64,000 nt of DNA, taken from contig AP028876.1 of the NCBI GenBank assembly GCA_036323355.1, positions 2,108,001 through 2,172,000 of the forward strand, given 5' to 3'. The position numbers and the translations under genes are program-made. Origin of the DNA: Gottschalkiaceae bacterium SANA (GTDB lineage Bacteria > Bacillota > Clostridia > Tissierellales > GPF-1). Shown here in pieces: positions 27,072 to 31,805 of the stretch. The notes under the pieces are model-generated. The model ran no database searches. It was not told the DNA's origin and was given only the letters and a program-made list of their open reading frames with translations. Position 1 is the stretch's first letter, and each line of letters opens with the position of its first letter.

Positions 27072-27337
27072 CCAACACCCTCCACTTCTATACCAAGATA
27101 ATATAGTTCTAATTTCATTATACTTGTCTTACAGAATCAGAACAACGAGTAAAGCGGTAAGTTCCGTCGCAAAACTTTCTTGACAATCCCAAACAAGCAA
27201 GTAAGAGCAAGCAGCAAAATATGATGGATATAATGGAAAACACGACTTTGCCTCACAAGATAGAATTAGAAAATTCATCATATTTTCCATTTTAGCTTCC
27301 TGTATACTAAAGATACAAACAGCAGGGAGGATCCTTA

Positions 27338-28174
27338 ATGAACCGTAAAACCGTACTTCAAATACAAAAAATATTGAAAACAATTGAGACTAATCTGCAA
27401 GAACCCCTAGATCGAAGAAAACTAATCGAAATGACCTATCTTTCGTCGGCCGCATTTTATCCCTTATTTCGAAATTTAATCGGTACAAGTGTTAAAGACT
27501 ATATCCAAAGGAGACGTCTCTCGGCATCCTGCAAGGACCTTGTTGACTCGAATAAAAGTATCCTAACCATTGCCCTTCAATATCAATATGAAAGCTATGA
27601 GAGCTATTCACGTGCCTTCAAACGACTAACAGGTCTAAGCCCAAGACAATATCGCAAGACAGGCGTGTTAACAGCACCCTATGGTCCCGTGACAATCATG
27701 GCATCATACTCAAAAGGAGATCTCGAAATGAAAAGACGAATGAATCAAAAACAAATCATGAATGCTCTTCGATCCCACTCTGGTATTTTATTGGACATCG
27801 ATATCGATGAATTTGAAGCAGTCAATCAAAAATATGGACGCGACACTGGCGACTACATTCTGTCAGAAATTCCAAAACGTATAAACCAAGTGCTCGTTTC
27901 TTTCTCAATTAGAGGAGAAGCCATCCGAATCCACAACGATGAGTTCCTTGTTGTCCTTCCTGATTCAGTAGAAGATCATGACTCGATTACTGAAGCATTT
28001 CTGTCTCAAATTCGATTTCCTTATCAATTTCGCAGTGAAATGATCTGTATAACCGTCAGCATCGGGCTTACACCATACTCCATGAAGCAGGATTGGACCG
28101 AATCGATGGAACGAGTTGAAACTGCCATGAAATCGGCTAAGACAAATGGTAAAAACCAAACCTATAAATCATAA
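27338..28174 (+). CDS. AraC-type regulator fused to a degenerate GGDEF domain
   Basis: A 278-residue protein with an unusual order. Residues about 1-105 form an AraC/XylS double helix-turn-helix (FYPLFRNLIGTSVKDYIQRR, then SYSRAFKRLTGLSPRQYRKT). After a short linker, residues about 135-275 follow a GGDEF fold: LLDIDIDEFEAVNQKYGRDT matches the metal-binding DLDxFKxxNDxxGH segment and SIGLTPYS its last strand, but the active site reads HNDEF instead of GGDEF near residue 200. A nucleotide-sensing or dimerising role is inferred. GGGAGGATCCTTAATG gives a clear start. The 27072-27337 stretch before it carries a TATACT -10 at 27303 but no clear -35. Confidence 0.8.
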   Translation: MNRKTVLQIQKILKTIETNLQEPLDRRKLIEMTYLSSAAFYPLFRNLIGTSVKDYIQRRRLSASCKDLVDSNKSILTIALQYQYESYESYSRAFKRLTGLSPRQYRKTGVLTAPYGPVTIMASYSKGDLEMKRRMNQKQIMNALRSHSGILLDIDIDEFEAVNQKYGRDTGDYILSEIPKRINQVLVSFSIRGEAIRIHNDEFLVVLPDSVEDHDSITEAFLSQIRFPYQFRSEMICITVSIGLTPYSMKQDWTESMERVETAMKSAKTNGKNQTYKS

Positions 28175-28199
28175 AAAGCATGCCCAGGGCATGCTTTTT
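28173..28199 (+). terminator. Terminator after AraC-GGDEF gene
   Basis: Perfect 13-bp arms AAAAAGCATGCCC / GGGCATGCTTTTT with a one-base loop. The following 28200-28364 holds nothing recognisable. Confidence 0.88.
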
Positions 28200-28390: not shown

Positions 28391-28588
28391 TTAAAATAGA
28401 TCCTTTAATTTGTCTGCTGCGCTGCCCAAATCCAAACCACCTTCGCCACCCAGAACTTTTTCGACTTGACTTTGAATCGGCTCAGGGAGTTTATCTCCCA
28501 AATATGATTTGAGTACCTCAACTACTTTCTCTGCAAGTTTTTCATCCAAATTTGTTTCATCCATCAATTTTTTTACAATTTCTTTCAT
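28391..28588 (-). CDS. Small acidic helical protein (65 aa), unknown
   Basis: Not recognised as a named family. 65 residues, mostly two predicted helices rich in Lys/Glu/Leu, then a Gly-rich turn (GGEGGLDLGS) and a short last helix (ADKLKDLF). ATG at 28588 has GGGAG about 9 bases before it and a terminator directly after the stop, both arguing that this is real and that the much longer frame reaching 28870 is not. It lies 64 bases downstream of the DUF89 gene on the same strand. Confidence 0.65.
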   Translation of the reverse strand: MKEIVKKLMDETNLDEKLAEKVVEVLKSYLGDKLPEPIQSQVEKVLGGEGGLDLGSAADKLKDLF

Positions 28589-28652
28589 TATTATCTCCCT
28601 TAATTTGAAGTATTGTTCGTATTTATAATACCCAAATTTTAGAAAACAACAA

Positions 28653-29516
28653 CTACTCTTTAATAAAAATGCCTTGGAATTGTTTCGTTTGAAATCGATC
28701 AATAAAGAGCTGGCACTTACACAAAAATAGAAAATAAATATTCCGACCCGTTTCAGACAAAGATTCAAAATTGCCTTGTCCCTTGGACAGAATAAAATCC
28801 GCCGAATCAATCGCCTCTTGCGCTTCTTGGCTGATAACACCCAATTGCGTCCCGGGAATTTTAGTCCCATTTCCCATTACTGGCACGATCTTGGTCAAAC
28901 CGACTTCCTCAGCATCCTCCATCAAGGCATCATTTAAAGCAACATCACCGCGAACAATCACCTGAATGTTAACCTCGGGGTACAATTGCTGAATGGTTTG
29001 AATCAAAATCTTATCAAAAACAATCTCTCCCGCATTGTCTGTCAAATAAACCAACTTATGACCCAGTTCAAGTTCTTGACGAAAATCTTTCACGGTCTGT
29101 GCATCAAGATTTTGATCACCCGCTCGTTCAATCAAGCTCTCTAGCTTTTCTTCGTCGACTGTATCCATAGCGCCAAAATCGATCAAATTGCCAATCATAG
29201 CAAATTGCAAGGCGCTCATCAGTTGATCATCAGACTCTTGAATCCGTTTTACAATTTCCATTTCCTTCAACATTAGAAATTGATTATAATGCCGTTTTTG
29301 CCTATAAAAAGGATCTCCAATATCAAACTTATTCTCTAAAATCGCGTTAATCTTTGAATAAAGTAAGGGTGCTGTATCCGACTCATGAGCCACGGAAATC
29401 TCCCCATACACCTCTTTCATAAAGTGCAACAAACCGTCTTCACTTTGATCATAATTCAAATAATTCTGTTCCGCTTTTCCCAACATACAATTTATGCAAG
29501 TTAAATTCGCCTTCAT
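28653..29516 (-). CDS. DUF89 (ARMT1-like) damage-control phosphatase family protein
   Basis: DUF89 protein, a family with metal-dependent phosphatase activity on phosphorylated metabolites. Residues CINCML near the N-terminus, DNAGEIVFDK near residue 160 and the conserved SKGQGNFESLSE block near residue 255 are typical. Cys-containing N-terminus is a feature of one DUF89 group. ATG at 29516 is chosen for GGGGGAG upstream (287 residues). Separated by 30 bases from the upstream flavin reductase gene, so probably one unit. Confidence 0.85.
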   Translation of the reverse strand: MKANLTCINCMLGKAEQNYLNYDQSEDGLLHFMKEVYGEISVAHESDTAPLLYSKINAILENKFDIGDPFYRQKRHYNQFLMLKEMEIVKRIQESDDQLMSALQFAMIGNLIDFGAMDTVDEEKLESLIERAGDQNLDAQTVKDFRQELELGHKLVYLTDNAGEIVFDKILIQTIQQLYPEVNIQVIVRGDVALNDALMEDAEEVGLTKIVPVMGNGTKIPGTQLGVISQEAQEAIDSADFILSKGQGNFESLSETGRNIYFLFLCKCQLFIDRFQTKQFQGIFIKE

Positions 29517-30458: not shown

Positions 30459-31805
30459 TTATGCGATGACAACACGATTTCGACCAGACTCTTTTGCTCG
30501 ATAGAGTGCATCATCAACCTTCTGGATAAATTCTGACTCCGATTCCACGTTAAGGGCTTGCAGATTGCCACAACCAATACTTACAGATACTTGAATGGAT
30601 GCGCCATTTACCATCATTACATGTTCTGCGATTCGTATGCGTAGACGCTCTGCGATTTGTTCAGCGGCTATAGCCTCTGTATTTGGCAATGCCAAGAAAA
30701 ATTCTTCTCCACCATACCGAATCATAATATCAGACTTACGTAACTCTTCCCTTGCAATTTCAGTCATTTGTCTGAGAACACCATCTCCAACCAAATGCCC
30801 ATACGTATCGTTCACACGTTTAAAATGATCAACGTCAATCATTAAGGCACTGAATGGCATATCCATTTGCCTTGCCCGTTGATATTCATTCCTATATATC
30901 TGCAAACCTGCTCGTCGATTATAGAAATTCGTTAGCGAATCTCGTTCAGCAATGCGTTGCAATTCTTCATGTTCAAGTGCATTGTTCAAAGACAAAGCCA
31001 AACTATGGGAAAAAATATCAATCTGCTTCATTAATTCCGATGAAAAGGTTTCTGCCGTTGCCAAGATAATAATGCCCATTACCTTATCCTTGTAAACAAT
31101 GGGTACAAGCAACACTTGTCGGGGTTGATATTCCATCAAAACACTTCTTACATTCAAATCCTTTGGATAAGTGATCATCTCATAACGTTTATTCTTTACA
31201 ACTTGATGCAAGAAATGATTACTCTGAAATGATTCAGTATCCTCAATTCCATGACTGGCAATCGTCTGACACTGATCCCCATCTACCAATAATATAGCAC
31301 CTGCACTCGCATCCCCGTGTTTCATTAAAACTTCAAGCGCGTTATCTGCCAAAACGTCCAATTCCAATTGACTTGAAAGGATTTCCGTATAACTGCGAAT
31401 TGCATCCTGCGTCTTCAGCACAGCTGCAAAGGCTTCGATCAACTCATTAAACGCTAAACCACAAGTACCAAAAAGATCGTCGGATTCTACTGGAATCTGG
31501 CAAGTTTCAATGGTACAATCACCAATTTCACCCCCTCGTGAAATCGCTAAAACATTTTCTTTCGCATGATTCATCTTCATCGTAAAAAGCTTCAGCTTTT
31601 CACCTACTGTGAGCCTCGCCAAGAAAATATTCACCAGGCCAACAAGAATCCCCGCTGCAACACAGGACATAAAAAAGACCGGTGACATTGCAATTGTGAC
31701 TGAAACACCAAGCGCCCATGCAAAAAATGGGAACAACAAACCAATTAAAATTCCAAATCCAATCATCCAAGTCGCTAAAATAATAAACACATTCTTTTGA
31801 TCCAT
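30459..31805 (-). CDS. Membrane GAF-GGDEF diguanylate cyclase
   Basis: Makes cyclic di-GMP. Two N-terminal helices (about 7-27 and 33-62), a linker of about 80 residues, a GAF domain at about 145-280 (YTEILSSQLELDVLADNALEV start) and a GGDEF domain at about 290-448 with RYGGEEFFLALPNT near residue 362; GGEEF is an accepted active variant. Ends with the usual ALYRAKESGRNRV. ATG at 31805 with GGAGA. 448 residues. Confidence 0.9.
   Translation of the reverse strand: MDQKNVFIILATWMIGFGILIGLLFPFFAWALGVSVTIAMSPVFFMSCVAAGILVGLVNIFLARLTVGEKLKLFTMKMNHAKENVLAISRGGEIGDCTIETCQIPVESDDLFGTCGLAFNELIEAFAAVLKTQDAIRSYTEILSSQLELDVLADNALEVLMKHGDASAGAILLVDGDQCQTIASHGIEDTESFQSNHFLHQVVKNKRYEMITYPKDLNVRSVLMEYQPRQVLLVPIVYKDKVMGIIILATAETFSSELMKQIDIFSHSLALSLNNALEHEELQRIAERDSLTNFYNRRAGLQIYRNEYQRARQMDMPFSALMIDVDHFKRVNDTYGHLVGDGVLRQMTEIAREELRKSDIMIRYGGEEFFLALPNTEAIAAEQIAERLRIRIAEHVMMVNGASIQVSVSIGCGNLQALNVESESEFIQKVDDALYRAKESGRNRVVIA

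Follow-up and report, generated by a model that had tools for sequence, protein, structure and literature searches.

The window analyzed here, a 64,000-nucleotide stretch of the Gottschalkiaceae bacterium SANA genome (contig AP028876.1), carries on its forward strand a gene for a 278-residue protein in which an N-terminal AraC-type helix-turn-helix (HTH) domain is followed by a degenerate GGDEF domain. The linker between the two domains contains a Shine-Dalgarno sequence and an in-frame start codon. The features of the locus, numbered from the first nucleotide of the window, are as follows.

27262-27337, plus strand: 5' region similar by pairwise alignment to that of the orthologue in genome L001; presumed to hold the gene's own promoter
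27324-27330, plus strand: Shine-Dalgarno sequence of the long product, AGGGAGG (duplex -10.9 kcal/mol)
27338-28174, plus strand: long product, AraC HTH plus degenerate GGDEF, 278 aa (open reading frame; Pfam HTH_18 and GGDEF; 12 further genomes)
27431-27658, plus strand: AraC-type HTH_18 DNA-binding domain, residues 32 to 107 (Pfam E value 7.6e-18)
27712-27719, plus strand: internal Shine-Dalgarno sequence AAAAGGAG, 8 nt ahead of an in-frame ATG (duplex -8.9 kcal/mol)
27728-27730, plus strand: internal start codon ATG, residue 131 (GTG in L016)
27728-28174, plus strand: predicted short product, the free degenerate GGDEF domain, 148 aa (short-form model)
27746-28159, plus strand: GGDEF-fold domain, residues 137 to 274 (Pfam E value 1.7e-22, profile positions 20 to 161)
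27794-27808, plus strand: DIDID segment, with D155 as the counterpart of the metal-binding Asp of cyclases (13 of 13 genes; alignment to solved cyclases)
27932-27946, plus strand: degenerate active-site motif HNDEF, residues 199 to 203 (intact GG in 0 of 13)
28173-28199, no strand assigned (listed on the minus strand): terminator-like stem-loop following the gene (1 detected, against an expectation of 0.9 from shuffled sequence)

Domain architecture and genomic setting

The HTH_18 and GGDEF matches both exceed their curated Pfam cut-offs; HTH_18 scores 65 bits against a cut-off of 33.6 and provides the double HTH of the AraC/XylS family. With E values up to 10 allowed, Pfam found nothing in the protein beyond HTH_18, HTH_AraC, and GGDEF: no GyrI-like or Cass2 domain, no MerR HTH or TipAS domain, and no GGDEF_2 ahead of the HTH. 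YesN-type AraC regulators have a GGDEF-like middle domain (GGDEF_2) that precedes the HTH; here the HTH comes first. The GGDEF match enters the profile at position 20, which makes the domain short at its N terminus. The original prediction, made by inspection of the sequence, was of an AraC-type HTH fused to a shortened GGDEF domain with the motif HNDEF and a retained LLDIDIDEF segment, and on each of these points the profile search and the structural model described below agree with it. It also named cupin-like sugar sensors as the usual partners of AraC-type HTH pairs, a statement that does not fit the relatives examined here, which have an N-terminal HTH and a C-terminal GyrI-like domain.

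The upstream neighbor, on the opposite strand, is a diphthamide-synthase-like gene. Downstream lie a short open reading frame (28391-28870, minus strand) and an ARMT1-like phosphatase gene. L001, which belongs to the same genus, has the same genes upstream of the regulator as the window, whereas the downstream gene is not shared, and in that genome a DUF2177 membrane protein gene is divergent to the orthologous regulator. A promoter scan of the region returned 4 sites where 3.2 were expected, and at 27262-27337 none lay on the plus strand; the 5' block at these positions, similar in the two genomes, is a candidate operator, and DUF2177 may be a former target. Positions 27132-27179 (minus strand) may hold a remnant of a DUF2177 C terminus, identical at 12 of 16 positions to the last 16 residues of the L001 copy, and gave no Pfam match. 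Open reading frames beside L011, L013, and L014, compared by eye, offered no conserved neighbor that would name a target; they are unlike one another and unlike those of L012, L015, and L016 of the same genus. Rfam found no riboswitch or other RNA at gathering score between 25000 and 31000. A GAF-GGDEF gene with the canonical motif RYGGEEF lies close by (30459-31805, minus strand) and likely encodes an active diguanylate cyclase.

Distribution, ancestry, and nucleotide pocket of the AraC-GGDEF proteins

The order HTH then GGDEF was found in 13 genomes, the window's and 12 others, so it is not an accident of sequencing or reading frame. Pfam was run on 3 of the 13 proteins, and the remainder were assigned by alignment and profile. 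Within the order, 8 of 249 genomes have such a gene: the window's, L001 (MAG GPF-1; 61% identical to the window protein), and six more. Outside the order it occurs in L055, L056, L057, L058, and L081. In a phylum sample of 398 genomes, 10 passed the E-value threshold, of which five (the window's own included) have AraC-GGDEF genes and the other five have AraC genes of other kinds. Identity to the window protein drops to 25% among the 12 aligned sequences, so features conserved across the group carry weight.

The genome's two best other AraC matches, L003 and L004, both carry a GyrI-like domain, and their likeness to the window protein extends beyond the HTH into the linker (query residues 9 to 137 and 8 to 141), which indicates that the GGDEF domain occupies the place of the GyrI-like domain. 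On a tree of the HTH domains, the AraC-GGDEF architecture needs two changes and the starred branches force one; a single change was seen in 8% of bootstrap trees. As judged from these sequences, the group may have arisen either once or twice. Other C-terminal arrangements were also encountered. In L017 and L018 the domain behind the AraC HTH is a nucleotidyltransferase (Polbeta), assigned by Pfam in L017 and by likeness in L018, and L059 and L063, from two genomes of one genus, are AraC frames of 140 to 156 aa that end after the HTH with similar odd C termini.

Residues 131 to 278 were modeled with a pLDDT of 86.9 and a pTM of 0.81, and the model takes the GGDEF fold. Compared with the best 50 solved entries, all GGDEF-containing proteins by title or sequence search, it gave Z scores of 16.3 to 20.1 over 133 to 144 residues, and the best match (Z 20.1) superposed with an rmsd of 1.7 over 140 residues. 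A first Foldseek search had given rmsd values of 10 to 36, which we set aside as support. A full-length model that drew on 8 sequences was of low quality (mean pLDDT 62, with HTH blocks at 43 to 60), and so the short-form model alone was relied on.

Pocket columns were assigned by alignment to solved cyclases. D155, N163, G171, D172, D201, and E202 are kept in 13 of 13 AraC-GGDEF genes, as is the DEF triad of the motif; K268 is kept in all 12 readable sequences, and K or R at 272 in 11 of 12. By the roles of these residues in PleD, D155 corresponds to the metal-binding Asp, N163 and D172 to the guanine contacts, and K268 to the phosphate Lys, with K/R272 on the phosphate side. The GG of the GG(D/E)EF motif is intact in 0 of 13 proteins. 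Its two positions read HN, HN, NA, NA, NN, NA, NV, NA, HG, QG, SA, AA, and AA across the group, the second Gly being gone in 11 of 13; L055 has HGDEF. An I-site RxxD ahead of the motif, read from the aligned strings at the usual spacing, was found in 0 of 13.

The guanine-nucleotide pocket thus seems to be under selection and the hairpin that permits catalysis seems not to be. Since the GG hairpin is lost and the pocket kept, the domain most likely binds GTP or a related nucleotide and does not synthesize c-di-GMP; this half of the protein is best read as a sensor that binds a guanine nucleotide and is catalytically impaired. The proposal that the domain is catalytically dead gains from the loss of GG in all 13 proteins and is likely, although a cyclase engineered to carry His at the first motif position is active (PMC3974145). 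As to the companion proposal of a c-di-GMP or GTP sensor, the conserved pocket is compatible with sensing of a guanine nucleotide, and c-di-GMP binding at the usual I-site finds no support.

A translation start signal in the linker

The original prediction had overlooked the start signal in the linker, which changes the likely way of working of the protein. We scored a signal when a Shine-Dalgarno duplex of -6.5 kcal/mol or stronger preceded an in-frame start codon in the linker. By this measure all 13 AraC-GGDEF genes carry it, as do 64 of the 69 other AraC relatives, for a total of 77 of 82. Its form varies: AAAGGAG-8-ATG in L001; AGGAGG-7-ATG in L011 and L013; GGAGG in L014, L055, L056, L058, and L081; GGGGGG in L012 and L015; AAAGGGG in L057; and GGAGG in L016, with GTG standing where the others have ATG. 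All 13 linker duplexes with the anti-Shine-Dalgarno sequence are at or below -8.1 kcal/mol.

Of the 69 other relatives, 66 have a GyrI-like match and likewise 66 a Cass2 match; Pfam gave no GyrI-like match in the remaining 3. Five of the 82 relatives lack the signal (L105, L050, L098, L062, and L053), three of them lacking the start codon as well, and ATG, GTG, or TTG stands at the linker position in 79 of 82. The AraC-nucleotidyltransferase genes L017 and L018 have no internal Shine-Dalgarno. L019 to L021 have a second linker type, with a different peptide, and still encode a Shine-Dalgarno. In 11 of 12 scanned genes with the site, the GyrI-like Pfam model begins 0 to 1 residues after the internal start, so in most of them the short form would comprise the entire domain; in L019 the model begins 19 residues past it. 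The internal duplex of the window gene (-8.9 kcal/mol) compares with -10.9 kcal/mol at the main start, and in L055 and L078 the internal signal is clearly the stronger, main starts having been chosen by best Shine-Dalgarno. With an internal signal near or above that of the main start, a comparable amount or an excess of short product is plausible.

Relatives were sought with the window protein, its alignments, and the AraC-GyrI paralogue L004, and up to 30 loci per search were taken, so the set leans to closer relatives. In 110 loci, 106 open reading frames passed the BLAST rule, of which 89 distinct ones were kept after 17 identical or contained frames were dropped. Seven were excluded before counting: the nucleotidyltransferase genes L017 and L018, the HTH-only frames in L059 and L063, two further AraC proteins (one in L042, one in L059), and Escherichia coli Rob. 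When they are restored, the signal is present in 78 of 89; Rob passes at -6.7 and the other six fail. In E. coli MG1655, the linker of rob (L110) carries this weaker Shine-Dalgarno, followed by an in-frame ATG where the HTH and GyrI domains meet.

Elsewhere in these genes, in-frame start codons reached the cut-off in 41 of 721 cases, and those of 178 neighboring open reading frames without an AraC match in 161 of 2,387. Per gene, such a site occurs somewhere in 86 of the 178 neighboring frames and outside the linker in 29 of the 82 relatives; an internal start with a Shine-Dalgarno is common per gene, and its fixed place alone is unusual. In the 13 AraC-GGDEF genes the mean duplex is -9.8 at the site against -1.1 elsewhere (sd 1.4), the strongest nonsite column reaching -6.3, and in the 77 genes, which were chosen for having the signal, it is -10.1 against -2.1 (sd 1.06).

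Four codons ahead of the start, the Gly codon that forms the Shine-Dalgarno is GGA in 61 of 73 genes, compared with 386 of 1,113 for the remaining Gly codons in these genes (Fisher test, 1.2e-16). Among 1,000 synonymously recoded sets of 47 representatives, none matched the observed strength; as strong a signal arose in 7 of 1,000 sets for the 13 AraC-GGDEF genes and in 16 of 1,000 for 10 representatives of these 13. The peptide K-G-G or K-G-D alone yields a null mean of -8.45 against the -9.80 observed in the 13 genes. Gene-by-gene synonymous tests on an earlier, smaller set, combined by Fisher's method, gave a nonsignificant P of 0.19 for 12 AraC-GGDEF genes and a weak result, P 0.026, for 45 others. 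Where Met is replaced at the start residue, the codon is TTG in 4 of 6 Leu and GTG in 2 of 3 Val; a start codon is thus kept in 6 of 9 replacements (P about 0.002 given the codon usage of these genes, with the L053 column set by hand). These P values are too small, because the genes are related to each other. The linker carries a conserved internal initiation signal whose strength modestly exceeds what the peptide and the codon usage would give. Since the protein sequence explains much of it, expression of the short form is inferred.

A predicted two-product regulator and its alternatives

Two alternatives would explain the linker without a second protein. The K-G-[GDE]-x-x-M peptide could be kept for the protein, as a joint in the structure or a relic of an old fusion, in which case the Shine-Dalgarno would be a by-product and only the full-length form made. 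The conserved linker residues (G127 is invariant in 12 of 12), the -8.45 that recoded linkers still average in the 13 genes, and the gene-by-gene P of 0.19 for AraC-GGDEF are consistent with such a joint, whereas the GGA bias (61/73 versus 386/1,113), the 0 of 1,000 recoded sets for 47 representatives, the start codon kept in 6 of 9 Met replacements, and the other peptide with which L019 to L021 encode the signal argue against it, and we regard it as doubtful, though with a real chance of being right. Shine-Dalgarno-like stretches slow ribosomes, and one placed at the domain boundary, as here, might let the HTH fold before the sensor while the second start goes unused; pausing has no need of a spaced start codon, yet one is present in 79 of 82 relatives, and this account seems to us highly improbable.

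The ligand and activity of the GGDEF half also admit other readings. It might sense c-di-GMP bound between two domains in the former active site and so pass the level of this messenger to transcription. With 33 GGDEF matches in the genome, the present one among them, and a single PilZ match, c-di-GMP signaling is likely in the organism, and degenerate GGDEF receptors of c-di-GMP are known (PMC5052742). PopA, the example given in that paper, relies on an intact I-site, however, and with RxxD in 0 of 13 proteins here we consider c-di-GMP sensing unlikely. That the domain retains weak cyclase activity or forms some other product, and is only recruited by the DNA-binding half, appears very unlikely: PMC3974145 reports that Ala, Met, or His at the first position can be active in one cyclase, and L055 retains the second Gly (HGDEF), but that Gly is lost in 11 of 13 proteins and the match to the GGDEF profile lacks its N-terminal end.

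Two-product regulators and degenerate GGDEF receptors are both already known. Some phosphodiesterases have a degenerate GGDEF domain that binds GTP, and the AraC-GGDEF proteins resemble these and PopA in having a degenerate-motif GGDEF fold that may serve as a nucleotide sensor. PopA differs in that it binds c-di-GMP via an intact I-site (PMC5052742), which is absent here, and in the AraC-GGDEF proteins the partner is a DNA-binding domain. In Streptomyces lividans, one gene of the MerR family is translated from two start codons into TipAL, an HTH plus a ligand-binding domain, and TipAS, the ligand-binding domain alone (PMC3048380 and PMC7762955), and the short form predominates (PMC7762955). 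The window gene has the corresponding feature, an internal initiation signal in frame at the boundary between its domains, and is predicted to give the sensor alone as well. The parallel is one of arrangement: TipA has a MerR-type HTH, the TipAS fold, and antibiotic ligands, whereas the protein described here has an AraC HTH and a GGDEF fold, and both TipA products have been reported whereas the AraC-GGDEF short product is predicted. AraC-GyrI proteins (Rob type, PF06445/PF14526) share the N-terminal AraC HTH and the linker Shine-Dalgarno and start codon, and differ in their C-terminal domain, which is GyrI-like where that of the window protein is GGDEF. RpnL/RpnS are genes within genes in which a separately translated C-terminal domain acts on the long protein (PMC10327210); that pair is a nuclease toxin and its antitoxin, while AraC-GGDEF is a transcription factor. 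Among the matches listed in searches of open-licence PubMed Central titles and abstract beginnings, neither an AraC-GGDEF protein nor an internal start in AraC-GyrI genes was found, and word searches of PMC11005335 and PMC13245402 gave no match to AraC, Rob, TipA, a DNA-binding domain, or a transcriptional regulator.

We propose that the gene encodes a one-component regulator as two nested proteins. In the long product, the AraC HTH would bind DNA and the GGDEF half would bind GTP or a related guanine nucleotide. Ribosomes would also initiate at the linker Shine-Dalgarno and ATG (GTG in one relative) and produce the sensor domain alone. This free sensor could take up ligand in competition with the long product or associate with that protein's sensor half, and would thereby set the strength of the regulator's response, as TipAS does beside TipAL. 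We think it more probable than not that the protein is such a two-product regulator, with a nucleotide-binding long form and a predicted free sensor domain modulating the response; the production of the short protein, its ligand, and its dampening or pairing role are each putative. For the broader proposition, that a large class of regulators, the AraC-GyrI and AraC-GGDEF genes found in the window's phylum (presumably Bacillota), consists of genes within genes in which the sensor was exchanged from GyrI to a degenerate GGDEF domain and the internal start kept, we find the case evenly balanced.

If it is correct, the AraC-GGDEF proteins would be the nucleotide-sensing members of that genes-within-genes class, and annotation would be overlooking a second protein in most genes of a regulator family that is widespread. 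Current models of the ligand response in this family would then omit a built-in competitor, and AraC-GGDEF proteins would link the level of a guanine nucleotide to transcription without a separate receptor.
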